A stretch of DNA of 64,000 nucleotides from Candidatus Hydrogenedentota bacterium (GTDB taxonomy: Bacteria > Hydrogenedentota > Hydrogenedentia > Hydrogenedentales > SLHB01), in NCBI GenBank assembly GCA_020849535.1, contig JADLGB010000143.1, positions 1 through 64,000 of the forward strand, given 5' to 3'. Shown here piece by piece: positions 3,379 through 60,967 of this stretch. Positions within the stretch are counted from its first letter, which is position 1; the number at the start of each line of letters is the position of its first letter. Made by a program: the position numbers and the translations under genes. The notes beneath the pieces were generated by a model. It was not told the origin of the DNA. It ran no database searches and saw nothing but the letters and a program-made list of their open reading frames with translations.

Positions 3379-3573
3379 ATGCCTACCTTCGAGTACCATG
3401 CCATTCGGGCGGAAGGCGATGAAGAGAAGTCCTTCGTGGGGGGTGTTGTCATCGCGAAGTCGCGTCATGAGGCCAAAGAGAAGCTGCGGGAACTGGGCCT
3501 GAAAGCCACCATGCTCAAGAAGGCCCGCGGTGTCATGGCCCTGCTGAAATGGCTGGACGCCGATATCCGTTGA
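3379..3573 (+). CDS. Small protein resembling the GspF/PilC N-terminus
   Basis: This 64-aa protein starts MPTFEYHAIRAEGDEEKSF and continues with SRHEAKEKLRELGLKA, which matches the start of type II secretion/type IV pilus inner-membrane platform proteins (F/PilC: MPxFxYxA...A.s..eA...Lr..Gl). Real GspF proteins are about 400 aa with three membrane helices, and here the reading frame stops before any of them. A GGGAGAAG ribosome site precedes the ATG. The downstream glycosidase starts 36 bp later. It could be a remnant, or a stand-alone cytoplasmic adaptor. It is divergent from dgkA, and no other secretion gene is next to it; a PilB/GspE ATPase lies at 22.7 kb. Confidence 0.5.
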   Translation: MPTFEYHAIRAEGDEEKSFVGGVVIAKSRHEAKEKLRELGLKATMLKKARGVMALLKWLDADIR

Positions 3574-3609
3574 GATTCGCTTCGCCCCGGGGACAAAGGA
3601 GGCCATCTC

Positions 3610-32484: not shown

Positions 32485-32636
32485 GACACAGGCGAGGGCG
32501 CCTGTGCCACACGCGCTTGCCCAGCCTCGAGTTTCTATTTCTATCTTCCGGTCCTTGGTTTGCACGAAGACCAGAAAAATTTCTAACAGCCAGGGGCCGT
32601 GGGTGGACGTGTGGCACAGGCGCCCTCGCCTGTGTC
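32485..32636. mobile_element. MITE-like element A (152 bp, 29-bp inverted ends)
   Basis: Ends gacacaggcgagggcgcctg (from 32485) and its inverted copy ending cgccctcgcctgtgtc at 32636 match over about 29 bp; each end is itself a small palindrome. Similar elements of 157 and 154 bp lie at 38880 and 60751. The rest of the 395-bp gap between the epimerase and recG shows no gene. No flanking target duplication is obvious. Confidence 0.65.
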
Positions 32637-38843: not shown

Positions 38844-38879
38844 CCGCGCGACAGGTCAGAGAGCTCGGCAAGCTCTGAA

Positions 38880-39036
38880 GACACAGTCACGCAGGGCGTG
38901 ACTATGCCACACGTCTGTCTACCGCTCCTCGTTCTTCTGAAACTTTTGAAGTCCTCGCGCAAACAAGGACAGCAAGAAAGGAGGTGTCCCTACAGGCAAG
39001 GCAAGCGCGTGTGGCACAGGCGCCCTCGCCTGTGTC
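38880..39036. mobile_element. MITE-like element B (157 bp)
   Basis: The right end (39008-39036) is identical to that of element A; the left end (38880-38913) keeps gacacag and gccacacg but has a different inner hairpin (cacgc-agg-gcgtg). It lies 36 bp after the antiporter stop codon. The interior shares an A/G-rich tract (caagaaaggagg) with element C. Confidence 0.6.
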
Positions 39037-46487: not shown

Positions 46488-48157
46488 GCACGCTGCGTCA
46501 GACAGGCCAGGCCGCGAAGCGTTTTCTACTGCACGTGGCGCTCCTGGCGGGTTCCATCCTTTTTGCCTTCCCCTTCATCTGGCTGCTCAGTACCAGCGCC
46601 AAAGTTCCCGATGAGATGTATCCCCTCAGATGGTTCCCTCAGATTCCCGGCGGGGTCACGGTGTCTCCCCATATGGCAGTGCGTGCGAATGAACGCGCGG
46701 TCAAGCCCGCCTTGGTGAGCAGTGAAGACTGGGAGCGCGTCCATGACCCGTGCTTGAAGGCCATTTCCGCGATTGCCGTGGAACTCACGCCATCACTGCC
46801 GGAGTATTTCGCACCGCATTTGGACAACGAGGATTTGGCGGAGGGCATCTACGCCCGCCTCGTGCGCCGTACGCCCGACAGCGTTTTTCAACTGTCCGAG
46901 CCGGAAGCGGGGCGCTGGTTCGCGCAACGCGTGGACCTTGACCTGGTCCGCGAGGTCTTTGATTCGGTCTACCGCCGGGTGGCGGTTTCCGAGGTGACTC
47001 TACACGGATGGGATCTCGCAGTTGAGCGTCCGACCGCGAATGGGACCTTCAACTGGCTGGTGGTGAGCGGGGATGCGGAATTGTCCCGACGCGACGGAGA
47101 CGGCGGCCGTCCTTCTCAGGAGGTTCATTACTCCTTCGAGAAGGAGAAGGCATTTGAGCTGCGGACGGAAGTGCCGCTGCAGATGGATCTTGCAAATCTC
47201 CGCAAGGTGGTGGTAGCCAATCATGCGGACCGTTCCTGGCACCGCATCAAGGCGACGATCGAAGTGGGCGGGCGGCGCTACGTGTCGACCCAGACCGCGT
47301 TCACGGGCACGGACCAATGGCAGGATTTAACGTGGCAGTTCGCCAGTCCGGACGACGACACGATCAAGATGAAGAACTGGCTGCGGCTCGAAGAGGCGGG
47401 TCCGTCTGAGGTGAGCGATCCGAAGATGCTGCGGATCACGCTTCGCTACGAATACGCTCCGCACCTTCTCGCGACCTGGTACAAGTACACCGACAACTAC
47501 CGGAAGGTGCTTCGCGTGGCGCCGATCCTCGTGTACGCCCGGAACAGCACCCTGCTGGTGCTGCTGAACGTGATTGGACAGGTTCTCGGTTCGGCGGTGG
47601 CGGCCTATGCGTTCTCCCGCCTGCACTGGCCGGGACGCGACTTCTGCTTTCTGCTGGTGCTTGCCACTCTGATGATTCCGCCGCAGGTCACCATGATTCC
47701 GGTGTTCCTGATCTTCAAGGAGTTGGGATGGTACAACACCTTGCGGCCCTTGTGGATACCGTCCTTCTTCGGGAGCGCGTTCTACATCTTCCTGCTGCGC
47801 CAGTTCATGCTGGGGATTCCCAAGGACCTCGAGGACAGCGCAAAGATGGATGGGTGCGGCTATCTTGGAATTCTGTGGAATATCATCCTGCCCTTGGTTA
47901 AACCCGCGTTGGCGACAATAGGCGTGTTTACCTTCCTGGGCGTCTGGAATGACTTCATGGGGCCGCTGATTTACGTGAGCGACCAGCGCTTGTATCCGCT
48001 GAGCTTGGGATTATTCTCGTTGCAGGTGATGAACGCCCACGCGTACGGCGGGTTGATGGCGGCATCGGTGCTGATGACCCTTCCGGTGATTGCCCTGTTC
48101 TTCGCGGCGCAACGCCAGTTCATCCAGGGCGTGACCTTGACGGGGCTCAAGGGGTAA
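46484..48157 (+). CDS. MalG-type ABC permease with large extracytoplasmic insertion
   Basis: A 557-aa permease. TM1 (VALLAGSILFAFPFIWLLST, residues about 18-38) is separated from the rest of the channel by about 300 residues (about 45-340) that are beta-rich and include a sandwich-like part (WLVVSGDAELSRRDGD, TAFTGTDQWQDLTWQF). The standard core follows: NSTLLVLLNVIGQVLGS, ATLMIPPQVTMIPVFLI, EAA loop EDSAKMDGCGYLGILW and a C-terminal GVTLTGLKG. MalG proteins are usually about 280 aa. ATP-binding subunit not in the window. The 3' end overlaps rsmG (opposite strand) by 11 bp. Confidence 0.85.
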   Translation: MSTLRQTGQAAKRFLLHVALLAGSILFAFPFIWLLSTSAKVPDEMYPLRWFPQIPGGVTVSPHMAVRANERAVKPALVSSEDWERVHDPCLKAISAIAVELTPSLPEYFAPHLDNEDLAEGIYARLVRRTPDSVFQLSEPEAGRWFAQRVDLDLVREVFDSVYRRVAVSEVTLHGWDLAVERPTANGTFNWLVVSGDAELSRRDGDGGRPSQEVHYSFEKEKAFELRTEVPLQMDLANLRKVVVANHADRSWHRIKATIEVGGRRYVSTQTAFTGTDQWQDLTWQFASPDDDTIKMKNWLRLEEAGPSEVSDPKMLRITLRYEYAPHLLATWYKYTDNYRKVLRVAPILVYARNSTLLVLLNVIGQVLGSAVAAYAFSRLHWPGRDFCFLLVLATLMIPPQVTMIPVFLIFKELGWYNTLRPLWIPSFFGSAFYIFLLRQFMLGIPKDLEDSAKMDGCGYLGILWNIILPLVKPALATIGVFTFLGVWNDFMGPLIYVSDQRLYPLSLGLFSLQVMNAHAYGGLMAASVLMTLPVIALFFAAQRQFIQGVTLTGLKG

Positions 48158-48887
48158 TTTGGCCGGAGGCGCGGATGATGTGGAGCGTGCCGCGCCGGAG
48201 AGCGGTGGCAGTCCACGAGTCTTCAAAATGTTCCACGTGGAACATTGGCGCCGAATGTTCCACGTGGAACATTTTGGGGGCGACACTTCTCGGGTCGCCC
48301 GCTTGACACAGCAGCACCGCCCCGCTCTTCACCCACTCTCCCAATGTCGGCAAAACCTTGTCGGGCCGCTCAATCGCCCGGGCAGTGATTACGTCCGCCC
48401 GAACCCCCTCCGCCACCTTCGGAAACTCGCCGCTTCGCACCTCGGCCCCCGTCAGCCCCAAGGCCGCCACGGCCTTTCGCAGGAAGCCCGCCTTCCGCTC
48501 CGACCGCTCGACCAGCACCGCACGAAGTCCTGGGAGCGCTATCAGCAGCGGTATCGCCGGGAAGCCTCCCCCGCTCCCCACGTCCAGCAGAAGGCCCTCC
48601 CCCACCCCTTCGCGCAGCAGGACCGGAACCAGCGACAACGAGTCAACCGTGTGCCGGTCCAGGAGGTGCGGCAAATCGCTCGCGGAGACCAGTGAGACCA
48701 CTCGATTCCATTCCTCAACCAGCCCGACGTGGTCACGGAGCCGGCCCAAGGCGGCCTCTCCCAAGACCACTCCGCCCGCACGAAGCAAGTCAATGGCCGC
48801 CTGAATACGGGGTAGGCCAACTCCCCCGTCCGCGCCGGGCTCCGATGGGCTCCAAAAACACCTGAAATGCTGCAATTTCAACCACAT
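48147..48887 (-). CDS. rsmG: 16S rRNA (guanine-527-N7)-methyltransferase RsmG
   Basis: Methylates G527 of 16S rRNA with SAM. The 246-aa sequence has LLEEWNRVVSLVS-like EEWNRVVSLVSASD, HTVDSLSL, the SAM motif LLLDVGSGGGFPAIPLLIALP and VITARAIERPDKVL. The C-terminal tail carries MFHVEHSAPMFHVEHF, encoded by two parS sites. The start at 48887 is uncertain, since no good ribosome site was found. It is divergent from apgM. rsmG often neighbours parAB and the origin, but parAB is not in the window. Confidence 0.92.
   Translation of the reverse strand: MWLKLQHFRCFWSPSEPGADGGVGLPRIQAAIDLLRAGGVVLGEAALGRLRDHVGLVEEWNRVVSLVSASDLPHLLDRHTVDSLSLVPVLLREGVGEGLLLDVGSGGGFPAIPLLIALPGLRAVLVERSERKAGFLRKAVAALGLTGAEVRSGEFPKVAEGVRADVITARAIERPDKVLPTLGEWVKSGAVLLCQAGDPRSVAPKMFHVEHSAPMFHVEHFEDSWTATALRRGTLHIIRASGQITP
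48229..48244. promoter_or_regulatory. parS site 1
   Basis: tgttccacgtggaaca, a perfect 16-bp palindrome equal to the ParB-binding consensus (TGTTNCACGTGNAACA). It lies in the coding sequence of rsmG and encodes part of MFHVEH. It would nucleate ParB loading for origin segregation. Confidence 0.9.
48256..48271. promoter_or_regulatory. parS site 2
   Basis: Second identical copy of the 16-bp palindrome, 27 bp from the first and in the same reading frame of rsmG. Confidence 0.9.
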
Positions 48888-48968
48888 AACCTTGACTTGC
48901 CCGGCGCTCCCGTGTTATCTTGGCAACACCACCATGTTTGGACCTTTGGGTCTTGGGGAGATGCCTCG

Positions 48969-50201
48969 TTGAAATACCTAGTCCTGCTCGGAGACGGCAT
49001 GGCCGACTTCCCCGTGGCTGAATTGGACGGCCGGACTCCACTCGAGGTGGCGAACACGCCCGCCATGGACGAAGTAGCGGCTTTGGGTATCTGCGCCCTC
49101 TTCAATCCCATCCCCGAAGGTCTTCCTCCCGGCAGTGACATTGGAAATCTCTCGGTTTTCGGCTATAACCCCCGGGCGACGTACACCGGCCGGGCTCCCC
49201 TGGAGGCGGCCCGCCGTGGAATCCTGCTGGCCGAAAATGAGGTGGCATTCCGCTGCAATCTGGTTACCCTCGCCGACGGGCTGATGCAAAGCTTTACCGC
49301 CGGCCATATTACCACGGAAGAGGCCACGCAGCTCATTCACGCCCTGAACGAGGCCCTCGCCGAGCTTCCCATCCGGTTCAGTCCTGGGGTCAGCTACCGG
49401 CACCTCGGCATCATCACGGCCGGCCAGGTTTCGGTGGATGACTTGGCGTCGGTCTTTTGCACGCCTCCCCATAACATAACCGATCAGAAGTACGAGCCGC
49501 ACCTTCCCGAGGGGCCGGCAGGCAAGCTGCTTTGCGCGGTGATCGAGCGGTCGGCGGACGTCTTCCGCGGCCACCCGGTTAACCAGGCCCGCGAAGCCTC
49601 CGGTAAGCCCCCCGCGACACACGCATGGTTGTGGGGTCAGGGCCGCTCGCCTATCATGGAGCCGTTTCACGAGCGCTTCGGGATTCGCGGCGCGGTGGTG
49701 TCCGCGGTGGACCTGGTGAATGGTATTGGCGTTTGTGCTGGATTAGAGGTGTTGGAGGTACCTGGTGCAACAGGATATCTGGACACCAACTACGCGGGCA
49801 AGGTGGCCGCGGCGCTGGACGCCTTGGACCGGGTGGATTTCGCGTACGTGCACGTGGAGGCCCCGGACGAGACAGCCCACGAAGGCCGGCTCGATCTGAA
49901 GCTGCAGGCCATCGAGGATTTCGACGCGAAGATCGTGGCCCCATGCCTGGAATACGCCAAGGAGCGCGGCGACGTGCGCATCCTCGTGGCGCCCGACCAC
50001 GTGACGGCGCTGTCGACCAAGACGCACGCCGGGGGCGCGGTGCCGTTTGCGTTGTGCGGACCGGGGATCGTGCCCGACGCGGCGGTGTCGTACAGCGAGC
50101 GCGCGGCCCAGGACTCCGGCCTGCTCTTCCCGGACGGACACGAGATGCTGCCGTGTGTGATACAATCGGCCCGAATCGGCGCGGGCGCCATTCTCACGTA
50201 A
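48969..50201 (+). CDS. apgM: Cofactor-independent phosphoglycerate mutase, archaeal type (ApgM)
   Basis: Interconverts 3- and 2-phosphoglycerate without 2,3-bisphosphoglycerate; some relatives act on phosphonates or homoserine. The 410-aa protein belongs to the alkaline phosphatase superfamily with LGDGMADFP, the metal/nucleophile region GNLSVFGYNP, and VHVEAPDETAHEGRLDLKLQAIEDFD and VAPDHVT. The start is TTG at 48969 with GGGGAG 8 nt upstream; an in-frame extension to 48867 overlaps the rsmG start. It is followed 87 bp later by cimA. Confidence 0.88.
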   Translation: MKYLVLLGDGMADFPVAELDGRTPLEVANTPAMDEVAALGICALFNPIPEGLPPGSDIGNLSVFGYNPRATYTGRAPLEAARRGILLAENEVAFRCNLVTLADGLMQSFTAGHITTEEATQLIHALNEALAELPIRFSPGVSYRHLGIITAGQVSVDDLASVFCTPPHNITDQKYEPHLPEGPAGKLLCAVIERSADVFRGHPVNQAREASGKPPATHAWLWGQGRSPIMEPFHERFGIRGAVVSAVDLVNGIGVCAGLEVLEVPGATGYLDTNYAGKVAAALDALDRVDFAYVHVEAPDETAHEGRLDLKLQAIEDFDAKIVAPCLEYAKERGDVRILVAPDHVTALSTKTHAGGAVPFALCGPGIVPDAAVSYSERAAQDSGLLFPDGHEMLPCVIQSARIGAGAILT

Positions 50202-50288
50202 CCTTTCGCCCCTCGTTGGGGCCCTCCCCCATGGTTCGGGTGCGCATGGCCCCGCATACAAGAAACAGCAGCAGTGGAGAACGGCCCA

Positions 50289-51890
50289 GTGTCGAAGCGT
50301 GTTGAGATTTACGATACGACCTTGCGCGACGGTGCGCAGGGACGGCTGATCAAGTTTTCCTCCGAAGATCAGTTGCGCGTGGTGCGCGCGCTCGACGAGT
50401 TCGGCGTGCACTACATCGAGGGAGGTCAGCCGGCCTCGAACCCCAAGGCGGCCGAGCTGTTCGCGCGCACCCACGACATGGATTTGAAGCATGCCAAGAT
50501 GGCTGCCTTCGGAAGCACGCGGCATCCCAAGTCGGCGGTCGAGGACGACGCCAACATCAAGGCGCTGCTTTCGGCGGACACCGAGGTCGTGACCATCTTC
50601 GCCAAGTCCTCCCCCACACACGCAACGCAGATCCTTCGCGTATCCCTCGATGAGAATATCCGGCTCACGGCCGAGTCCGTGGCCTACCTCAAGTCGCAAG
50701 GACGCCGCGTGTTTCTCGATGCGGAACACTTCTTCGACGGGTACAACGAGGACAACGAGTACGCGTTGTCCGTGCTGGAGGCGGCGTGGCGCGCGGGCGC
50801 CGAGGTGCTCGTGCTGTGCGATACCAACGGCGGGCGGCTGCCCTCCGAGATCGCGGCGATCACGCGGACGGTGCGCGAACGTCTGCCCGACGCGCAGGTA
50901 GGCATCCACACGCACAACGATGGCGGGTGCGCCGTGGCGAACAGCATCGCGGCCGTGCAGGAAGGGGCCGTGCAGGTGCAGGGGACGATCAACGGGTACG
51001 GGGAACGCACGGGCAATGCGAACCTATGTACTATTATTCCATCCTTGCAGCTCAAGCTGGGCTTCCCGGTCGTGGCCCCGCAACAGCTCGCGGGATTGAC
51101 CCAGTTGTCGCACCTCGTGGCGGAACTCGCCAACATGAACCCGCGCGATTCCGAACCGTACGTCGGGCGCGACGCGTTCACGCACAAGGGCGGCATGCAT
51201 GCGGATGCCGTGAACAAACTCAAGACCAGTTACGAGCACATTCCCCCGGAACTGGTCGGCAACCGGACGCAGATCACCGTGAGCGAAGTGTCGGGCCGCT
51301 CGAGTCTCTTGCAGAAGGCGGCGGACTTCGGCATCGAGTTGAACCGGGAGGCGCCCGAAACGCGGGCCGTGCTCGAGCACGTGAAAGCACTCGAGAACCA
51401 GGGCTACGAATTTGAAGGCGCAGACGCGTCGCTCAAGCTGCTCATCCTGCGCGCGCAAGGCAAACACCGCCCCTACTTCAAGCTGCATGGACTGCGCGTC
51501 AGCGTGGAGCGGCGCAACGGAGAGCCGGAGGGCGTGTCAGAGGCGACGGTCAAGATCGAGTTGCCGGATGGCAAGGTGAACCACACCGTGGGCGAGGGTG
51601 CGGGCCCCGTCGACGCGCTCAACAATGCGCTGCGCAAAGCGCTCGAAAGCTGGTACCCGGAATTGGCTGAAGTGCACCTCGAGGATTACAAGGTGCGCAT
51701 CCTCGACGCGCAATCCGCGACCAAGGCGAAAACGCGCGTGCTGATCGAGTCCGCCGACGGCCAGGACGAGTGGGATACAGTGGGTGTTTCGGAGAACATC
51801 ATCATCGCGTCGTACGAAGCGCTGGTGGACAGCATCGAGTACAAGTTGTATCTCTCACGCGGCGGCGGCAAGGCGGCGGGGCTGGCGTAG
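50289..51890 (+). CDS. cimA: Citramalate synthase CimA
   Basis: Condenses acetyl-CoA and pyruvate to (R)-citramalate, feeding isoleucine synthesis without threonine. The 533-aa protein has the DTTLRDGAQG start of the HMGL/LeuA family, metal-site HTHNDGGCAVANSIAAV, the NGYGERTGNANLCTIIPSL motif typical of CimA-type enzymes, and the LeuA_dimer-like regulatory region from about 390. GTG start at 50289 with GGAG 9 nt upstream; a second GTG 15 nt earlier is less likely. It pairs with ilvD at 11.2 kb. Confidence 0.9.
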   Translation: MSKRVEIYDTTLRDGAQGRLIKFSSEDQLRVVRALDEFGVHYIEGGQPASNPKAAELFARTHDMDLKHAKMAAFGSTRHPKSAVEDDANIKALLSADTEVVTIFAKSSPTHATQILRVSLDENIRLTAESVAYLKSQGRRVFLDAEHFFDGYNEDNEYALSVLEAAWRAGAEVLVLCDTNGGRLPSEIAAITRTVRERLPDAQVGIHTHNDGGCAVANSIAAVQEGAVQVQGTINGYGERTGNANLCTIIPSLQLKLGFPVVAPQQLAGLTQLSHLVAELANMNPRDSEPYVGRDAFTHKGGMHADAVNKLKTSYEHIPPELVGNRTQITVSEVSGRSSLLQKAADFGIELNREAPETRAVLEHVKALENQGYEFEGADASLKLLILRAQGKHRPYFKLHGLRVSVERRNGEPEGVSEATVKIELPDGKVNHTVGEGAGPVDALNNALRKALESWYPELAEVHLEDYKVRILDAQSATKAKTRVLIESADGQDEWDTVGVSENIIIASYEALVDSIEYKLYLSRGGGKAAGLA

Positions 51891-51902
51891 TCTCGGAGAA
51901 AG

Positions 51903-52069
51903 ACCAAGAGCATAGCCGGCTGTGCCACACGCGATTGCCCGGCCAGCCGGATCGGACGGATTGGACGAATCGGACCGATCGGACATGGGCGTCCGCCCCT
52001 GTCTTTTTATTGGGCCTGCAAGCTCCGGTGGCACTGCAGAGGGCGAAGAAAAGCGGCTGCAAGCCGCTT
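51903..52069. repeat. Repeat cluster between cimA and the amidohydrolase
   Basis: A half copy of the gccacacgcg end (about 51924-51933), then atcggacggattggacgaatcggaccgatcggac (51950-51983), and a stem aagcggct-gca-agccgctt at 52051-52069. These match families seen elsewhere in the window. No gene is evident in this 213-bp gap. Confidence 0.55.
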
Positions 52070-52111
52070 CTACTTTTGACGAGTTGCTCCTCATTACTAC
52101 AGGTACGAGCC

Positions 52112-53461
52112 ATGCTGCGATATGCTTCGATAGGAATCGTCATGATGGTCTGCATGACTTCCTCGCCCGCTTACAGCCAATCTGCCCAGCCGGAAGGCTG
52201 GACCGCCGTGTCCATTCGCGACGAGATACGCCCTGCGTTTTCCTACGATCCCCAAGGCGGCCCGCACAAAGACGGCGCCCTCATCATCGAGGCCGATGGC
52301 CGCGAAGGGTTGGAAGGCCGTTGGGTGCGCACGGTGCCAGTCGAAGGCGGCAAGGACTACAACTTCAAAGCCTTTGTCCATCTGACCAATGTAGCTTCGC
52401 CACGCCGATCCGCGCTCGTCCGCATTCTATGGCAAGACGGCGCGGGCAAGCCCGTGTATCGCGACGAACCCGGCGCGGAGACGTTCGCGGGCGGCCGGGC
52501 CCCGCTCGCCGAGCCTGAGTATCCGCGATATAGCCCGGGTCGCATGGCCGAAGGATGGACGGGCTTCTTCGGCGACTACAAAGCGCCTGCCGCTGCCAGG
52601 CAGGCCCTCGTGGAGCTGCACTTTCGCTGGGCCTCAAATGCCAGGGCCGAGTGGAGCGGCGTCACGCTGGAACCGTCTGAGGCGATCCGGCCACGTAAGG
52701 TCAAACTAGCCGCGATCCACTACGTTCCCAGCGGCGGCACGAACGCGATGGAGAACTGCAAACAGTTCGCCCCCCTTATCGAACAGGCCGCCACGGCAGG
52801 CGCGGACCTCATCGTGTTGCCGGAGACCCTCACCTGCACGAACAACGGTCTCACGTATCACGATGTGGCTGAACCTATCCCCGGGCCGAGCACGGAGTAT
52901 TTTGGTGGACTCGCGAAGGAGTTCAGCACGGTGCTTGTGGCGGGCCTTGTCGAACGCGACCAGCATCTCATCTACAACACGGCCGTGTTGATCGACGAGC
53001 TTGGGCGTTTCGTTGGCAAATACCGGAAGGTCACCCTGCCTCGCACGGAGGTGGATGCGGGGATCACGCCGGGGACGGAGTATCCCGTCTTCGACCTGTC
53101 GTTCGGGACCGTGGGTATGATGATCTGTTACGACGGGTTCTTCCCGGAGGTCGCGCGCCAACTGAGCAACAACGGCGCGGAGATCATCGCGTTTCCCGTG
53201 GCGGGGTGCAATCCGCTGTTGGCCGCCGCGCGCGCCTGCGAAAACCACGTGTTTGTGGTCAGCAGCACCTACTCCGACGTCAGCCTTGACTGGATGATCA
53301 CCGGCGTGTACGACCGCGAAGGCCAGGTCATCGCCCGAGCGAAAGATTGGGGCAGCTTCGCGATCGCCGAAGTCGATCTCGACAAGCACCTCTACTGGTC
53401 GAGCCTCGGCGATTTCCGCGCCGAACTCCCGCATATCCGGCCACTGCCCGTGCAGGAGTGA
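52112..53461 (+). CDS. Secreted nitrilase-superfamily carbon-nitrogen hydrolase
   Basis: A 449-aa exported protein (signal peptide ending SPAYSQ). Residues about 28-195 form a beta-rich N-terminal domain; residues about 195-430 are a C-N hydrolase domain with the catalytic triad visible: Glu238 in VLPETLTC, Lys306 in YRKVTLP and Cys339 in MMICYDGFF. It should cleave an amide outside the cytoplasm. Its last 14 codons are duplicated at 57387-57431, beyond the helicase island. Start ATG at 52112; the ribosome site is weak. Confidence 0.85.
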   Translation: MLRYASIGIVMMVCMTSSPAYSQSAQPEGWTAVSIRDEIRPAFSYDPQGGPHKDGALIIEADGREGLEGRWVRTVPVEGGKDYNFKAFVHLTNVASPRRSALVRILWQDGAGKPVYRDEPGAETFAGGRAPLAEPEYPRYSPGRMAEGWTGFFGDYKAPAAARQALVELHFRWASNARAEWSGVTLEPSEAIRPRKVKLAAIHYVPSGGTNAMENCKQFAPLIEQAATAGADLIVLPETLTCTNNGLTYHDVAEPIPGPSTEYFGGLAKEFSTVLVAGLVERDQHLIYNTAVLIDELGRFVGKYRKVTLPRTEVDAGITPGTEYPVFDLSFGTVGMMICYDGFFPEVARQLSNNGAEIIAFPVAGCNPLLAAARACENHVFVVSSTYSDVSLDWMITGVYDREGQVIARAKDWGSFAIAEVDLDKHLYWSSLGDFRAELPHIRPLPVQE

Positions 53462-53467
53462 GCGGGA
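53423..53467. repeat. Left 45-bp direct repeat (attL-like)
   Basis: gaactcccgcatatccggcc and onward to gagtgagcggga: the final codons and stop of the C-N hydrolase. The same 45 bp, with two substitutions, recurs at 57387-57431. Between them lie only the helicase and the BlaI-type gene. Confidence 0.85.
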
Positions 53468-53505
53468 GGCGGCGGCGGATGACGGCGGCTGAGGGTCCTC
53501 CGAAG

Positions 53506-56500
53506 TCAGGCAACGCGTCTCGCCCAAGCGAGAGCACGAGCGGGCAACGGGTGTTCCAATCGCCACGTTATTGACATCGGCTGGGACCCACGATGCTTGA
53601 CGTACTCCAGAGGCCCAGCAAAGAAGTATGGACTCGTCAAACCAACAGCATTCTTTTTGCGCTCTCTCAGGAAAAGGACCGGTGTATACTCCTGCTCACG
53701 GTGCCCAATGTAGCGCCGCCCCGTCAAAGACGATTCACTGGTGGTTGATTGACTTTGCCAGTGAAATAGCCGGTCGGTAATCGCGTAGTCTTCATACATT
53801 GTCGAGGGAGAGAAATCGGCTTCGGCTTTGTGGATGTCTGCGAAAAAGACATCCAGTTTCCTGGAAGGTACGTGCAGTACGCCCTCTCTGGAACTGTGTG
53901 GCTTCTCAAACTGGCCCAACCCAAGTGCCAGCAGGATCTGCTCCCGCGTGTACGATGCGTGCAGTACCAAAGGCCCCGTCATGGCTGGCAATCGCGTGGC
54001 TGGAATAGGCGTCCGGTGCGAGAGCAACCAATCCAGCAACTCAGCAAGGTCGTGCCTGAGACCCGACCTTGCGCGCAGGTAGTCGTCAACGTCATCAAGT
54101 GTACCATCGCCTGGCTTTTTGTTACCCCAAATGACACAATGAAGCATCGCTTTTGTCACGGGTTCAATGCCTCGTCCTTCCATCACCCAATTCCTAGCGT
54201 CGCTCAAGAAATGGGAATCATCCATCAACAAAAGACGCCTAAAACCCGCCGACAGTTTGTACTCAGAGATGCTGTCATCAATGCGGCGTTTCTGGGCTTG
54301 CGCGAATAGCAAGTGTGGAAGTCCACGTCTGTACAACTCATCAGGATCCTCAAGGTGCAAGTAATCGAGGAGTTCTTGCAGAGAAATCTCCCCCTCCGAG
54401 CGACGCCGAAGTTCCCGAAGCTCCCTTATCAGGAGTTCGCCGCGCAGACTTCGCGTAGCGGCTCTGATGTTGTTTAGTACATGTTCTTTAGCTTGTTCTT
54501 CCAAATGAACTAGACAGCCGGATGGGACAAAGGGCATGCCGGTGTCAATCTGTTTGTCGACGCGCAGCTCGGGACGACTCGAGAGCGCTTGAAAACGCTT
54601 CGCGAGGCGGAATTGCCGATGCTGCGGGGCAATGAAGTCAAGTACCGTAAGATGGGACTTTTCGTCGTGCAGTCGCAGACCTCTGCCAAGTTGCTGAAGG
54701 AAAAGCGTGAGACTCTCGGTTGGTCTGAGGAAGAGCACTGTGTCAACACATGGGATATCAACACCCTCATTGTAGATATCCACAGTGAAGATAAATCGTA
54801 TCTCCCGCTGTTCAAGTTGGCGCTGAACCCTTTGGCGCACGTCACGACCAGTCTCCCCTGTCAGAGCGACACTAGGCAACCCCGATCGTCTAGAATGCTC
54901 TGCCATAAACTCTGCGTGTTTTACACTCAGACAGAACCCAAGCCCCCGTACTTGTTGCAGATCGGCGAGATATCGATCTGCTTGACTCATCACCCAATTT
55001 GCACGCGCGTCGTTGCCCTCTATCAGCGATGCCAGTTCAGAGACATCATAGCCACCACGCTTCCAGGAGACCGCAGAGAAGTCCAGACCTTCGAGATCGG
55101 GTACGCCGAAGTAGTGGAAGGGGCAGAGGAGTGCTCGCTCAATGGCCTCGGGAAGACGAATCTCGTGCGTGAAGGCGCCATCGAAGTCGTCACGGATGTC
55201 GGCACCATCGGTACGCTCCGGTGTTGCAGTGAGGCCGAGCAAACTCTTTGGTTTTACATGGTTCACAAGCGCCTGGTATGAAGCGGAACTGGCGTGATGG
55301 GCTTCGTCAAGCACAACATACGCGTGGTGATCTGGCGGGAACTTGTCAAAGCCCCGGCTCATCCAGCTCTGTACAGTGCAGAAGAGATGGTCATGCTGCG
55401 GAAGCTCTGCACCTCCAATGACGAGATCACCAAAACTGCCATCACGTAACACTTGACGAAATGTGGCACGTGCTTGACGCAGTATTTCTTCACGATGCGC
55501 TACAAAAAGGAGGCGCGGCAGCCCGCCCGACTGGGTACAGAATGCCTTATAATCAAAAGCAGAAATCACGGTCTTGCCAGTGCCCGTAGCAGCAATCACC
55601 AAGTGTTTGCGCCTTCCAGCTGCCCGCTCCGCCGCAATGTCTTCCAGGATGGCCTTTTGGTATTCGTAGGGCCGAAGATCAAAGAATCCGACTTCCTCAA
55701 CCATTTGACGTGGGGCTATTTCCAGAGCCAATGCGCTACGCAACGTAGGCAAGTCGAGCATATGACACGGCGTGAACTCCGTCGCATCCTCCCAATGTGA
55801 CTCAAAAGTGGCTACAATATGCCGCCAAAGGTGCGCGGTTTCGTATTGGCTGATCTTGGCTGTCCACTCGAGGCCATCATCCAGCGCCGCCTTTGACACA
55901 TTTGCAGACCCAATGTACGCGGAGCCAAAACCGGTGTCGCGATGGAAAAGGTAAGCCTTTGCGTGTAGGCGAGTGCGTTTTGTGTCGTAGGAGACGCGTA
56001 TCTCTGTGTTCGGCAGCTTGAGCAATTCCTCGATGGCCTTTACGTCGGTAGCACCCATGTAAGATGTCGTCGCGATCCGCAATCGTGGACTCCCGTCCGG
56101 CGCAGGACTCTGAGTAAACGCGCGTAATGTGCCCAGCAATGGAACAATTCCAGCGTATTTGATGAACGAGACCAACCAGTCAGCGCGGTCACAAGTCGCA
56201 AGTTCTTTTTCCAGTTGGGTGCGCAAAGCCGGGCTCCGCGATGACCCAGTAAGTAAGGCAGACATGGCCAAGGGTGTATCCGGCCTGGATGTCCCTCTCA
56301 TTTCGCGCAACGCTGGTGAGATCTCATACAGCATCTTGGCCTTATCCGGCATAACCTCGGGCATAAGCGCCGTGATTATGCCCGGCGCGCAGAATGCACT
56401 CGTCAAGGCTTCCGTCCATACGCATTCATCTGTGCCGGTGATTATTTCGGTGACGTATGCTGCAAGCTCACGTGCCACGTGAGTCGTCAGCCTAGTCGGC

Positions 56501-56619
56501 AACTCCGCCGGGTCGATGCTTTCCCACGCGGCCCGTTGAGACAATCCGGCCTCCTCGAGTCGCTTGCGCAGTTGTGGTGTGTGAAGGAGTTCGTATAGGC
56601 CGTCAGGAAGTTCTTGCAT
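53506..56619 (-). CDS. PLD-nuclease/SF2 helicase fusion with DUF3427-type C-terminus
   Basis: A 1037-aa protein. A phospholipase-D-like nuclease domain lies at about 150-265 with one HKD motif (RLHAKAYLF, H219/K221, and GSANVSKAAL). An SF2 helicase follows: Walker A ATGTGKT about 344-350, DEAH about 438, LTATPERTDG, and motif VI QLGRGLR. The C-terminal part (about 850-1020; YTREQILLALGLGQFEKPHSSREGV) resembles DUF3427. Such nuclease-helicase fusions occur in defence and repair contexts. DNA here is visibly more A/T-rich than its neighbours, and 45-bp direct repeats flank the locus. The start at ATG 56619 is preferred over a TTG at 56637. Confidence 0.85.
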   Translation of the reverse strand: MQELPDGLYELLHTPQLRKRLEEAGLSQRAAWESIDPAELPTRLTTHVARELAAYVTEIITGTDECVWTEALTSAFCAPGIITALMPEVMPDKAKMLYEISPALREMRGTSRPDTPLAMSALLTGSSRSPALRTQLEKELATCDRADWLVSFIKYAGIVPLLGTLRAFTQSPAPDGSPRLRIATTSYMGATDVKAIEELLKLPNTEIRVSYDTKRTRLHAKAYLFHRDTGFGSAYIGSANVSKAALDDGLEWTAKISQYETAHLWRHIVATFESHWEDATEFTPCHMLDLPTLRSALALEIAPRQMVEEVGFFDLRPYEYQKAILEDIAAERAAGRRKHLVIAATGTGKTVISAFDYKAFCTQSGGLPRLLFVAHREEILRQARATFRQVLRDGSFGDLVIGGAELPQHDHLFCTVQSWMSRGFDKFPPDHHAYVVLDEAHHASSASYQALVNHVKPKSLLGLTATPERTDGADIRDDFDGAFTHEIRLPEAIERALLCPFHYFGVPDLEGLDFSAVSWKRGGYDVSELASLIEGNDARANWVMSQADRYLADLQQVRGLGFCLSVKHAEFMAEHSRRSGLPSVALTGETGRDVRQRVQRQLEQREIRFIFTVDIYNEGVDIPCVDTVLFLRPTESLTLFLQQLGRGLRLHDEKSHLTVLDFIAPQHRQFRLAKRFQALSSRPELRVDKQIDTGMPFVPSGCLVHLEEQAKEHVLNNIRAATRSLRGELLIRELRELRRRSEGEISLQELLDYLHLEDPDELYRRGLPHLLFAQAQKRRIDDSISEYKLSAGFRRLLLMDDSHFLSDARNWVMEGRGIEPVTKAMLHCVIWGNKKPGDGTLDDVDDYLRARSGLRHDLAELLDWLLSHRTPIPATRLPAMTGPLVLHASYTREQILLALGLGQFEKPHSSREGVLHVPSRKLDVFFADIHKAEADFSPSTMYEDYAITDRLFHWQSQSTTSESSLTGRRYIGHREQEYTPVLFLRERKKNAVGLTSPYFFAGPLEYVKHRGSQPMSITWRLEHPLPARALAWARRVA

Positions 56620-56864
56620 ATTCCACCACGTGCTCAAGTTGCTGGTGTGTAGTTACCCTAGAATGCCCGAGCGTGCGTCGGGAAGCAATAATAGTGAATT
56701 ACCGCACCTTGAACATAGTCGCTTTGCCTCTACATCGCTGGTTCTGCAACCAAATTCACATAGCTCTGCTTTTGTCGCTTTAACAAGTCTACCGAGTCAC
56801 CCCGTATACATACTCAACCTTTTTTGTGCTAGAAACACGCATTTCTGGTCATCGTTTCATGCGC

Positions 56865-56893
56865 TTGACAACTCCTTATTAAGATAGTAGAAG
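56865..56893 (+). promoter_or_regulatory. Promoter candidate for the BlaI-type gene
   Basis: TTGACA at 56865-56870 and tagaag at 56888-56893 with a 17-bp spacer, about 24 nt before the start codon. The -35 is perfect; the -10 is weak. The 297-bp gap between the divergent genes is A/T-rich and must also hold the helicase promoter. Confidence 0.4.
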
Positions 56894-56916
56894 TAGAAGG
56901 AACCCTGGAGGGCTAT

Positions 56917-57345
56917 ATGCCGAGGCACAGAAACATCGACGAATCCGAACTTCTGGTGCTGCGAGTCCTTTGGGCACCGAATACCCATTCTATCCGCGAC
57001 GTTATCAAGTCTCTAAAGACACAAGGGATTGCTTGGGCGCGGACCACGGTTCAAACCCACTTGACCCGTCTGGAGGCGAAAGGCCTTGTCAAGTGTGATA
57101 GATCCCGACGGGAACATGAGTACCGAGCCGCCTGCTCACGCGAGGAGATCGGAGCTCAAGGTCTCCACAGGTTGGCTGACGAGCTTTGCGAAGGATCAAT
57201 GACTCAGCAGTCGTTGTGGCTCATGACCAATCTACCGTTCTCGCACGACGATATCGCACGGTTTTGCACGCTTCTCGAAAGATTCAACAGGTCCACACCT
57301 GAACCACTCTCAGCGTCAGATGGCTCGACAAAGACCTACATCTAA
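56917..57345 (+). CDS. BlaI/MecI-type transcriptional repressor
   Basis: A 142-aa winged-helix protein. The DNA-binding half (LNIDESELLVLRVLW-like IDESELLVLRVLW, IAWARTTVQTHLTRLEAKGLVKCDR) matches the BlaI/MecI/CopY family, with a variable C-terminal dimerisation part. GGAGGG lies 6 nt before the ATG. There is no BlaR-type sensor protease beside it. It is divergent from the helicase and inside the same pair of direct repeats, so it probably controls the helicase. Confidence 0.75.
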   Translation: MPRHRNIDESELLVLRVLWAPNTHSIRDVIKSLKTQGIAWARTTVQTHLTRLEAKGLVKCDRSRREHEYRAACSREEIGAQGLHRLADELCEGSMTQQSLWLMTNLPFSHDDIARFCTLLERFNRSTPEPLSASDGSTKTYI

Positions 57346-57386
57346 CCGGCGATTTGATCTTTGAACCCATGCGTCGCTTCAAGGCT

Positions 57387-57431
57387 GAACTGCCGCATAT
57401 CCGGCCATTGCCCGTGCAGGAGTGAGCGGGA
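57387..57431. repeat. Right 45-bp direct repeat (attR-like), remnant gene 3' end
   Basis: Matches 53423-53467 in 43 of 45 positions. Both differences are silent leucine-codon changes (ctc/ctg, ctg/ttg), and the frame with its TGA stop is kept; one codon upstream R/K also agrees in type. This looks like the 3' end of a diverged hydrolase gene copy. Confidence 0.85.
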
Positions 57432-57485
57432 AGGGCGGGGGATGTCCTTCGCCAATGCCCCGCGCTTGGGCAAAGCATCGCACTC

Positions 57486-58901
57486 CTACCTTCCATACCC
57501 GATGGATTTGATGGCTTCTTCGGTCTCGGCGTCGACGCTCGTGGTGGCGCCCGCGTTTCCGAAGTAGGGATGCGCCTCCATCGTCCGATGATGCGCCGCC
57601 AACGCTTCGCGCAGTGCTTCTTCCGCAGCGGACGTTTCGGACGGAGCTTGCTCTCCCGGATCGGATTGCAGATTGTAGTATCGCGTCTGCTCCGTCTTCC
57701 GATTGATGATCGCCTTGTTCGTTCGCACGACCACGCATTCGAGGTCCACATTGGATCCCGGAATCGACGCTTGCGTCGAAGTGAAAACGGGCCGCTCCGG
57801 ATCGAGTCCCTCGGGATTCGAGACGATGTCGCGTCCTTGCCATTCTCTGCGCGGCGCAAGACCTGCGGCGTGCGCGCAAGACGGCAAGATGTCGGCCGTC
57901 TCGACCGGCGCATCGATGGCGCGCGGAGGCGCGTCCGGCGCGTGCACGATCAAAGGCACCCGCGACAGCTCCTCGTACACGGTTTTCGCGTGGCCGATGG
58001 ACCCGTGGTCCCACAGCTCCTCGCCGTGATCCGCGGTGACCACGATCAGCGTGTTCGGATGATTCTCGCGCAGGTAGGCAAGCAGGCGGCCGACTTCCTC
58101 ATCGAGATACGCCGCCTCCTCATCGTAACGTTGCCGGATGTAGGCTTCGCCCTGCGGCGAGAGATTTCCGAAGTGCCGTTCCTTGGTCAGTCCCATTTCA
58201 TGCAGCACGCGATCGATATATGAAGTACCGTAATCCGCGAGCAGCGCTTGGTCGTCCGCGGACAGCGCGGGCGGCGTGCCGAGTGAATCGCGGAAGGGAG
58301 CGGGCGGATCGTACGGCGCGTGCGTGTCCATGTAGTGCGCGTAGAAGAAGAACGGCCCGTTAAGTGTCTTCAGCGTCTCGATCGACTCATCCGTCACATC
58401 GCGTCCGCGATAGTCCGGGTACTTGTGAAACACGTACGAATCGAACCCCTGGTGAAATCCAAACGCCTCCGTGATGTTGGCATTTGTCTGGATCCCCGCG
58501 GTCGCGTAGCCATTGCCCTTGAAGAATCGGGCCATCGTCTCGAGACTATCGGACAACACGTCGGCCTGCGGCGGCTGCCCTTCGTAGATAGTGTCGTGAA
58601 TGCCGAAGAGCACCTTGTGCACTTCCGGATACAATGACGTGAAGATGGTGGCCATGGACGGCTTGGTCCATGTCGCCTGCACGTGGGCGTTGCGGTAGTC
58701 ATACGATTCCGACGCGAACTGCCGCAACTTCGGCATGAGCGGTTTGCCGTTGTGCTCCGCGGTGACACGGTCCATGCGCAGCGCATCGGCCACGATGAGA
58801 ACGACATTCAGGCGCGTCTCTTCGATGGGCGCCGTGGTGCGTGGACCGCAGCCCGCACACAGGATTACGCAAAGCAACATGCAGTGTTTGAAGCGTGTCA
58901 C
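57486..58901 (-). CDS. Sulfatase-family lipoprotein with threonine at the active site
   Basis: A 471-aa alkaline-phosphatase-superfamily hydrolase, probably lipid-anchored (lipobox LCAGC, cleavage before Cys18). It has VVLIVADALRMDR and VVTADHGEELWDHG for metal binding. The nucleophile motif, C/S-x-P-S-R in sulfatases, reads T-K-P-S-M (Thr79 in ATWTKPSM). It therefore cannot carry formylglycine; threonine nucleophiles are known in phosphotransferase relatives such as EptA. It may act on phosphate or phospho-diester groups rather than sulfate. It follows the SDR gene by 35 bp. Confidence 0.8.
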   Translation of the reverse strand: MTRFKHCMLLCVILCAGCGPRTTAPIEETRLNVVLIVADALRMDRVTAEHNGKPLMPKLRQFASESYDYRNAHVQATWTKPSMATIFTSLYPEVHKVLFGIHDTIYEGQPPQADVLSDSLETMARFFKGNGYATAGIQTNANITEAFGFHQGFDSYVFHKYPDYRGRDVTDESIETLKTLNGPFFFYAHYMDTHAPYDPPAPFRDSLGTPPALSADDQALLADYGTSYIDRVLHEMGLTKERHFGNLSPQGEAYIRQRYDEEAAYLDEEVGRLLAYLRENHPNTLIVVTADHGEELWDHGSIGHAKTVYEELSRVPLIVHAPDAPPRAIDAPVETADILPSCAHAAGLAPRREWQGRDIVSNPEGLDPERPVFTSTQASIPGSNVDLECVVVRTNKAIINRKTEQTRYYNLQSDPGEQAPSETSAAEEALREALAAHHRTMEAHPYFGNAGATTSVDAETEEAIKSIGYGR

Positions 58902-58936
58902 GTTTTCAGACTTTCCCCTTTGCCTCAGCGACTTCG

Positions 58937-59764
58937 CTACGGTTCGTTCAATCCAAACTTCTTCATGAGTACGCGCTCGAGAATTGCGGCGGGCACGAGG
59001 CGCTTGAATAGCGGGTACCGATACCCGCCATGCCCCACGCGCAGCACGCGCGGTGGACGCGCCCGCGTCGCGGCGTTCACGATCTGTGCGGCGACCTTCT
59101 CCGCGGCCGCGGCGGCGATCTGTGAGTACTGCGCGCGCGCCTCGAGATGGCTGGACAACGCCACATACGCGGAGCCTTCGGGCAGATGCACGTGTTCGGC
59201 CTGCTTATCGCCGAGGCGCGATTTCACCCCGCCCGGCTGCACGATGAGCACGTGAACCCCGAACGGCGCCAGTTCCATGCGCGCCGACTCGGATAGCGCG
59301 TGCAGGGCCGCTTTTGAGGCACAATACGACCCCGCGAAGGGTGTTGTCAGAATGCCCGAGACGCTGCCGATCTGCACGATACACCCATGCCGTTGCCGGA
59401 TCATGTGCGGGGCCACCGCCTGCATCAAGGCCACCGCGCCAATGACGTTGGTTTCCATCAGCAGGCGCAGTTTCTCGAGGGGCACGTCGATCATCGGGTT
59501 GATGAGGCCGAACCCGGCGTTGTTGACGAGAATATCGATGCGGCCCGCATCTTCGGCGACAGATGCGGTGGTGTGCGCAATGGACTCCGCGTCCGTGACG
59601 TCCAACGCGCAGGTGCGGATGCCCTCGCGCTCGAGGTCCGCGAGGGTGTCGAGACGCCGCGCCGTGGCGTAGACGCGATGTCCGGCCTTTGCGAAGGCAA
59701 GCGCGAGTGCGCGCCCGATGCCGCTTGAACACCCCGAGATCAAGACCACTTGCTGTGAGGCCAT
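58937..59764 (-). CDS. Short-chain dehydrogenase/reductase
   Basis: A 275-aa classical SDR oxidoreductase: cofactor motif VLISGCSSGIGRALA, NNAG in DILVNNAGFGLINP, catalytic YCASK (Tyr and Lys). The N-terminal ATARR suggests NADP(H). GGAGG 5 nt before the ATG at 59764 fixes the start. Substrate unknown. It sits between queC (31 bp upstream) and the sulfatase-like gene, probably in one transcript. Confidence 0.82.
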   Translation of the reverse strand: MASQQVVLISGCSSGIGRALALAFAKAGHRVYATARRLDTLADLEREGIRTCALDVTDAESIAHTTASVAEDAGRIDILVNNAGFGLINPMIDVPLEKLRLLMETNVIGAVALMQAVAPHMIRQRHGCIVQIGSVSGILTTPFAGSYCASKAALHALSESARMELAPFGVHVLIVQPGGVKSRLGDKQAEHVHLPEGSAYVALSSHLEARAQYSQIAAAAAEKVAAQIVNAATRARPPRVLRVGHGGYRYPLFKRLVPAAILERVLMKKFGLNEP

Positions 59765-59795
59765 CACGTCCTCCGCGCTGACAGGCAGTCTTCGC

Positions 59796-60494
59796 TCATT
59801 CGTACGGAAGGGGGTCTTCGAGGCCGGCCTCTTTGAACGCCTTGAGGCGTTCGACGCAGGTGGGGCACACCCCGCAGGCCCGTGCGCCGCCCCGGTAGCA
59901 CGACCATGTCTGATTGAAGAGCACGCCGAGTTCAACACCCAGGCGGACGGAGTCGGCCTTCTTCTTGCTCACGAACGGCGCGTGAATAGTCACGGGCTCG
60001 CGCCGGTTCAATGCGAGGACGGCGTTGACGCGTTCGAGGAAGTCCTTCGTACAATCCCAATAGCCGTATTCATCCAACGCCTGGGCGCCGTAATAGACGT
60101 CGCGGATGCCCTGGGCCTCCGCGTGGGCCGCGGCGATGCTCAGCAGGATCATGTTGCGGTTCGGCACGTAGGTGGGCGGCTGGTCGAGGTCGCCCGCCGC
60201 GAGATCTTTGAACTCCGGCACCGACTTGCCGCCCGCGATGAGGGCCGATGCGCCGCGCACCAGACCGCCCATGAACGAGATGTCGATGATGCGGTGCGTC
60301 TCGGCGTCCACGGCGTCGGCCTGCCAGCGAGCGCAATCCAGCTCCTTCGCATGGCGCTGGCCGTAGTTGAAACTCAGCACGTGAATGGGCGCGCGTTTCA
60401 GGTTTCGCGCCACATAGTGCAACAAAACGGAAGAATCAATGCCGCCGCTCACGAGAACGACCGCGCCTTGGTTGGTGTTGGTGCTCATTTCCAT
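59796..60494 (-). CDS. queC: 7-cyano-7-deazaguanine synthase QueC
   Basis: Converts 7-carboxy-7-deazaguanine to preQ0 with ATP and ammonia, in queuosine synthesis. The 232-aa protein has the PP-loop VLVSGGIDSSVLLHY, VPNRNMILLSIAAAHAE and a zinc site CYRGGARACGVCPTC. Length matches QueC. AAGG lies before the ATG at 60494; a second ATG two codons in is possible. No queD/E/F neighbours or preQ1 riboswitch seen. Confidence 0.95.
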   Translation of the reverse strand: MEMSTNTNQGAVVLVSGGIDSSVLLHYVARNLKRAPIHVLSFNYGQRHAKELDCARWQADAVDAETHRIIDISFMGGLVRGASALIAGGKSVPEFKDLAAGDLDQPPTYVPNRNMILLSIAAAHAEAQGIRDVYYGAQALDEYGYWDCTKDFLERVNAVLALNRREPVTIHAPFVSKKKADSVRLGVELGVLFNQTWSCYRGGARACGVCPTCVERLKAFKEAGLEDPLPYE

Positions 60495-60967
60495 AAGACC
60501 TTCTATGTCCGGGACCAGACCTCAGCGGAATACTCGGCACCACGGTGCCGGTTTTTCAGCGCTTTTTCAACTTGCGCGGGAAAAGAGCGGGAAGAGGCCC
60601 TCGCAGAGGCGCCATGGAAGCGGTGTAGGATGACAGGCGAGGGCGCCTGTCCCACACGCGCTCGCTGTCCCTTGGATGGTTTGATCTTCTTTCAGGCTTG
60701 GGTCGGCACTGGGACTGCAAGAGAATCAGACTGGTCCCGGAAGGGGATAAGACACAGGCGAGGGCGCCTGTGCCACACGTCTATCTCCCCTTCCCAGGTC
60801 GTTTTGGAATGCCCGGAGCCCGAATACTAATCGAGGTCCAGAAGAAAGGAAGAATCAACCAAGGCATGGCAAGCGCGTGTGGCACAGGCGCCCTCGCCTG
60901 TGTCTTGGATGGTCCGATCCGTCCGATCGGTCGAATCCGTCCGATGGGAACCCGCAAGCGGGACATC
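60495..60967. repeat. Repeat-filled gap upstream of queC with MITE-like element C
   Basis: No gene in 473 bp. A single end-type palindrome (gacaggcgagggcgcctgtc) lies at 60632-60660. Element C spans 60751-60904 with ends identical to elements A and B. Its right end is followed at once by tccgatccgtccgatcggtcgaatccgtccgat (60912-60944), a member of the atcggac family. Confidence 0.7.
60751..60904. mobile_element. MITE-like element C (154 bp, inverted ends)
   Basis: Left end gacacaggcgagggcgcctg (from 60751) and right inverted end cgtgtggcacaggcgccctc to 60904. Interior contains gtccagaagaaaggaag, which resembles the interior of element B. No coding capacity. Confidence 0.65.

Follow-up and report, generated by a model that had tools for sequence, protein, structure and literature searches.

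Within the window (the whole 64,000-nucleotide stretch of contig JADLGB010000143.1, here contig C143, from a Candidatus Hydrogenedentota assembly of 7.8 Mb in 336 contigs with 94% completeness), two genes lie between two copies of the end of a C-N hydrolase gene. This arrangement raises the question of whether the two genes were acquired from elsewhere, what they encode, and how they came to occupy this site. A sequence-only reading had described 45-bp direct repeats (53423-57431) around a helicase gene and a BlaI-type gene and had proposed a compact, possibly regulated anti-phage cargo integrated at a gene 3′ end. The repeat is real, and its full length is 48 nt, three more at the start than previously described; the two copies are 94% identical (3 differences) and spaced 3964 nt apart (Table 1), and in a gapped alignment the similarity runs ~16 nt further downstream. 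Each copy consists of the last 13 hydrolase codons and the stop (AELPHIRPLPVQE followed by the stop codon) plus 6 nt (GCGGGA). All 3 differences are synonymous, and the distal copy is in frame. The window contains exactly two occurrences of the 21-nt core of the repeat, and none of 100 dinucleotide shuffles contains any. A search of the whole genome returned good matches at the two island edges only (next match, E 0.24); therefore, a genome-wide repeat family was rejected as a candidate.

The two open reading frames (ORFs), a helicase on the reverse strand and a BlaI-type gene on the forward strand, stand alone between the repeat copies, as ORF and Pfam analysis confirmed. The interior is also A/T-richer than its surroundings, as had been claimed, with a GC content of 50-56% compared with about 60-66% outside. 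At third codon positions, the GC fraction is 0.57 for the helicase and 0.60 for the BlaI-type gene, whereas the flanking genes range from 0.76 to 0.84. Both island genes are foreign by composition. No integrase, excisionase, or other recombinase ORF was found in the island, which holds two genes only according to the ORF list and Pfam.

Table 1. Features of the island and its flanks (positions in the window)
Feature	Position	Strand	Remark
C-N hydrolase gene (PF00795)	51770..53461	+	Intact 3′ end, insertion target; G001 ortholog 87% identical (protein)
Proximal repeat copy	53420..53467	+	Functional last 13 hydrolase codons, stop, and 6 nt
Predicted SauUSI-type Type IV restriction endonuclease (PLD-SF2-DUF3427)	53506..56637	-	Likely start ATG at 56619
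Divergent intergenic region, 279 bp	56638..56916	.	45.5% GC; without canonical BlaI operator
BlaI promoter-like frame	56865..56889	+	TTGACA-N2-TCCT-N8-TAGTA
BlaI/MecI-family repressor (PF03965), orphan	56917..57345	+	Penicillinase_R (Pfam)
Distal repeat copy	57384..57431	+	Probable displaced hydrolase 3′ end
Sulfatase gene (PF00884)	57486..58901	-	Right flank, convergent with hydrolase

The phylogenetic placement of the helicase-nuclease is likewise displaced. Its closest homologues (63-66% identical) come from Chlorobiaceae (Chlorobiota), Campylobacterales (Campylobacterota), Mariprofundaceae, and one further bacterium, and in the tree the island nuclease groups with the Chlorobiota, Campylobacterota, and Mariprofundaceae homologues at 100/100 support. 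In contrast, the homologues from the same family and order (G004 and G025) are only 35-40% identical and distant in the tree. Since the nearest kin belong to other phyla and the same-order homologues are distant, horizontal transfer is the best reading. As for a phage or plasmid vehicle, the viral-contig, plasmid, and phage collections yielded only relatives of the nuclease below 45% identity. Taken with the repeat, we assign a probability of about 0.8 to the reading that a 3.96-kb segment with genes for a SauUSI-type nuclease and an orphan BlaI came in by horizontal transfer and was inserted at the hydrolase 3′ end. The insertion would have left the hydrolase gene intact, with its end now also present, as another 48-bp copy, beyond the inserted genes.

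A hydrolase ortholog was present in 17 of the 68 genomes of the order, and a collinear locus in the sister species (G001) only. Outside the genus, another gene lies downstream of the hydrolase, commonly an ORF reading like an amidohydrolase, and in a further genome of the genus (G002) this place is taken by a DUF1559 prepilin gene. Contig C414 of the sister species matches the window at 45993-53469 (86% identity) and its contig C724 at 57437-60672 (83% identity). Both matches end at the island edges, so that removing 53.42-57.38 kb rejoins the two matching stretches. At the hydrolase/sulfatase junction of the sister species, which is likewise convergent, neither island gene is present, and no full SauUSI homologue was found in its assembly, which is 81% complete. 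The comparison of empty and occupied sites that the sequence-only reading had proposed therefore bore out in part: a sister with the same flanks and without the cargo exists, and, together with the composition and the repeat, it upholds the idea of a compact, foreign, integrase-free insertion at the hydrolase 3′ end, but no fully empty site turned up. The junction of the sister species was rejected as such a site since it contains an insert of its own, a Type II restriction-modification (R-M) system.

That insert begins about 12 nt past the hydrolase stop with genes for a C5 methyltransferase and an NgoMIV-type endonuclease (L069:1-1388 on C414); the endonuclease gene is cut by the contig end, and the junction as a whole is split over C414 and C724. 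At its other edge, an 814-aa PMT-type glycosyltransferase gene lies ahead of the sulfatase (L096:156-2940 on C724), and this edge is marked by 40-nt repeats ending in GGGGGATG; no close copy of the glycosyltransferase was found in the genome of the window. The insert resembles the island in its position and in being a restriction system. It differs in that its genes (C5 methyltransferase and NgoMIV-like endonuclease) are unrelated to those of the island, its far end lies beyond the contig, and the hydrolase-end repeat, present once in the sister species, has no copy on the sulfatase side. The two sister species thus carry unrelated restriction systems at this junction, which has the appearance of a small docking slot for restriction genes, as judged from one comparison in which the sister assembly is 81% complete and its contigs are split. 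Since hydrolase and sulfatase are convergent here, an insertion between them should harm no promoter, and we infer that such a convergent-gene junction may serve as a recurrent landing site.

Two further elements were observed in these genomes. A second C5 methyltransferase gene of the sister species lies on its own contig C143 (17377-18627; L215, L218), together with a weak SF2 helicase match at 3523-3948, and this contig is possibly a defence island. In addition, a MITE-like interspersed repeat of ~155 bp occurs in the window at 32485-32636, 38878-39036, and 60749-60904 and also at L096:6140-6291, in L081, and in L207, and it is found in the sister species too; it has 29-31-nt terminal inverted repeats (GACACAGGCGAGGGCGCCTGTGCCACACG) and folds as one long hairpin.

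Which of the two repeat copies is the older bears on how the segment arrived. At 3 of the 3 positions that distinguish the copies, the distal one matches the base of the sister species (distances over 42 coding nt: 3 proximal-distal, 4 distal-G001, and 7 proximal-G001). Therefore, the distal copy is probably the displaced original end of the hydrolase gene, with three sites being too few as proof. An ancestral tandem pair of hydrolases, in which the distal copy would be what remains of a second hydrolase gene lost by deletion around genes inherited vertically, would also explain an in-frame copy with synonymous changes only. We regard such a history as extremely improbable, since the similarity stops sharply at 57384, tandem hydrolases were seen in none of the orthologous loci examined, and both island genes are compositionally foreign.

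For the insertion of an acquired segment, the polarity of the copies is compatible with an element that carried a gene end of its own and also with duplication of the target, after which the living copy would have drifted at synonymous sites. The insertion chemistry, which we infer, could thus have taken either of the following forms: (i) site-specific integration, in which an attP site mimicking the hydrolase 3′ end would have crossed over at the 5′ edge of the 48-bp block and restored the gene end, with a tyrosine recombinase acting in trans or since lost, leaving a non-autonomous cargo, or (ii) recombinase-free insertion of restriction genes with a long target duplication, in which the 48 bp would be target sequence duplicated during insertion.

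A repeat that runs from inside a gene to past its stop, with the gene end retained, is the typical anatomy of 3′-end integration. The island repeat starts within the hydrolase gene and ends just past its stop, an intact gene end is kept, and it is the distal copy that agrees with the sister species, all in keeping with the first form. However, the island is without an integrase or excisionase ORF, and the rest of the genome contains no further copy of the 48-bp repeat. Moreover, among the 58 helicase homologues with flanks, flanking direct repeats of at least 22 nt were detected at only 4 loci; these were mostly hairpin-like by eye, and none was recognized as a gene-end copy. Site-specific integration is therefore a tentative explanation, to which we would give somewhat less than even odds.

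For the second form, two papers that cite Nobusato 2000 and Furuta 2010 (PMC3874152, PMC3031569) describe restriction genes whose insertion involves no mobile element and leaves long, variable target duplications of the order of 100 bp. This is the closest described parallel to the island, which likewise has a predicted restriction gene, no mobile-element gene, and a flanking direct repeat of the target. It differs from the described cases in its repeat of 48 bp, in the position of the repeat exactly at a gene 3′ end with the gene preserved, and in a cargo of Type IV and BlaI-type genes. The restriction-gene cargo favors a long target duplication, as does the 3′ untranslated GCGGGA, which both copies share and which is missing in the sister species, as expected from copying. 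With the sister species as reference, all 3 differences fall in the functional copy and 0 in the dead one, which speaks slightly against equal decay of two duplicates on the few sites available. We consider this second form an even bet.

What the island would do for its host depends on the larger gene. Pfam domains of its product, a protein of 1037-1043 aa, are ResIII, Helicase_C, DUF3427, and RE_NgoFVII (PLD), and PADLOC assigned it to mREase_IV, a Type IV methyl-directed restriction enzyme (E 2.7e-205). The best match in the PDB was SauUSI (7clg; phmmer 4.9e-88). In a Foldseek search, the full-length AlphaFold model, built with 38 homologues, matched SauUSI over 938 columns (E 1.4e-38); the pTM of this model is only 0.63, and its TM-scores against SauUSI are low, which is expected if domain placement differs. 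When modeled alone (AlphaFold, pLDDT 84), the C-terminal domain again matched SauUSI (9.7e-6) and, after it, the SRA domains of SUVH6, AbaSI, MspJI, LpnPI, and UHRF1, which read modified cytosine. This places an SRA-fold/DUF3427 target-recognition domain at residues about 880-1040. The PLD motifs comprise HxK at H225/K227 and GSAN at 243-246, with H225, K227, and G243-S244-N246 invariant in the 38 homologues, and the SF2 ATPase motifs are intact (ATGTGKT at 350-356, DEAH at 444-447, TAT, and QQLGRGLR as motif VI). By predicted fold and catalytic motifs, the protein is a SauUSI-type Type IV restriction enzyme.

The comparison with SauUSI was extended to the catalytic and flipped-base residues named for that enzyme (PMC7913695). 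H225/K227 are the counterparts of SauUSI His-119/Lys-121. Among the 5mC-pocket residues compared (Y831, F841, I842, D858, and W868), D858 and W868 align with D950, which is invariant, and W960; F931/F932 are hydrophobic, and Y831 is paired with L921, the sequence alignment being weak. If this last pairing holds, the modification recognized may differ from that of SauUSI. The two enzymes are thus alike in domain order (PLD nuclease, SF2 ATPase, helical coupler, and SRA-fold target domain), in the HxK and helicase motifs, in the D858/W868 counterparts, and in being encoded by a stand-alone gene, and they differ in an N-terminal extension of about 100 aa, in the Leu aligned with Y831, and in overall identity, which is about 23-24% in the structural alignment. 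On SauUSI as a guide, the SRA-fold domain would bind DNA with modified cytosine (5mC- or 5hmC-like), and the nuclease would translocate by ATP hydrolysis before the PLD domain cuts the DNA. Most likely, the island nuclease serves as a barrier against modified foreign DNA in the manner of SauUSI, its activity and specificity being predictions, and the earlier idea of an anti-phage cargo is supported in this form, as a predicted anti-foreign-DNA nuclease. Beside SauUSI-like helicase genes in 13 loci, we also observed a NUDIX-domain ORF, often on the same strand and overlapping the helicase gene (L083:37-657, L113, L145, L148, L153, L157, L159, L162-L165, L175, and L176); a NUDIX protein may be a genuine partner of these enzymes.

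Because an enzyme that attacks 5mC DNA might leave its carriers without C5 methyltransferases, the distribution of these genes was compared. None was found in the genome of the window (94% complete), none in G004, and several in G025. Overall, 19 of 42 nuclease carriers compared with 37 of 68 genomes in the order gave a Fisher p of 0.43, and exclusion was undetectable at this level. One could also imagine the junction as an allelic restriction slot, in which incompatible systems (a 5mC-writing Type II system and a predicted destroyer of 5mC DNA) replace each other between sisters, with a retuned orphan BlaI silencing the latter until needed. Drawn from two genomes and set against a negative genome-level exclusion test, this scenario is highly doubtful.

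The BlaI-type gene remains to be placed beside the nuclease. Its product has Penicillinase_R along its length and shares 46-49% identity with a paralogue elsewhere in this genome (G000:C181). In that paralogue and in the other BlaI relatives examined, an M56-like sensor gene follows (M56 read from sequence), whereas the island contains no M56 (BlaR1-like) gene beside its BlaI. Similarly, one or two CTACA-N3-TGTAG operators lie upstream of the paralogue and of all nine best-scoring BlaI relatives, and positions 56601-56960 contain no such operator with fewer than 4 mismatches (the best sites miss 4 of the 10 fixed bases). The BlaI-M56 operons of the order have paired TCCTACA-N3-TGTAGKA-type operators just upstream (L207:4305-4770, L208, L209, L210, and L188-L196). 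The island BlaI promoter keeps the frame and spacing of the BlaI-M56 promoters of its relatives, the only such frame in the window, but its operator core is changed to TATTAAGA instead of, for example, ACAAAGTG. The protein in turn differs from its BlaI-M56 relatives at residues 42, 48, and 50, in the probable recognition helix, and in the ′STPLV′ stretch. Compared with BlaI/MecI and BlaR1/MecR1 (M56) systems, the island gene therefore retains the fold and the promoter frame and departs from them in sensor, operator, recognition helix, and ′STPLV′ region. From these features, the gene may encode a self-repressor that has been retuned, or it may be an orphan in decay.

These observations bear on the proposal that the two genes form a regulated defence module, in which BlaI would repress the divergent helicase gene until relieved by infection or a cell-wall signal. 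The divergent orientation over a 279-bp A/T-rich gap, the foreign composition common to both genes, the promoter frame retained from autoregulated BlaI promoters, and the three recognition-helix changes alongside a changed operator core would all suit it. However, no BlaI-like ORF lies near any of the 87 related helicase loci, at E-values up to 10; the canonical operator is absent near the helicase start; and the M56 sensor gene of the close BlaI relatives examined is missing. On this evidence, a regulated module is unlikely. A regular partnership of BlaI with the helicase was rejected on the 87 loci, among which the pairing expected by the sequence-only reading never occurs. A literature search for BlaI controlling restriction genes found nothing relevant. 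A passive gene or retuned self-repressor would be the likelier state of BlaI than part of a conserved helicase-BlaI system, and the locus advises caution in that two divergent neighbors need not form a regulated pair just by sharing an island.

Each part of the island is of a known kind, and the paired occupancy of one junction is the point of moderate interest. In an uncultured lineage, a predicted Type IV restriction enzyme appears to have been captured at a gene 3′ end with the target duplication preserved, and a second, unrelated restriction system occupies the same spot in a sister species. If this holds in more genomes, convergent-gene junctions would be small docking sites that take up restriction genes without an integrase, and the direction of insertion could be read from the polarity of the repeat copies.
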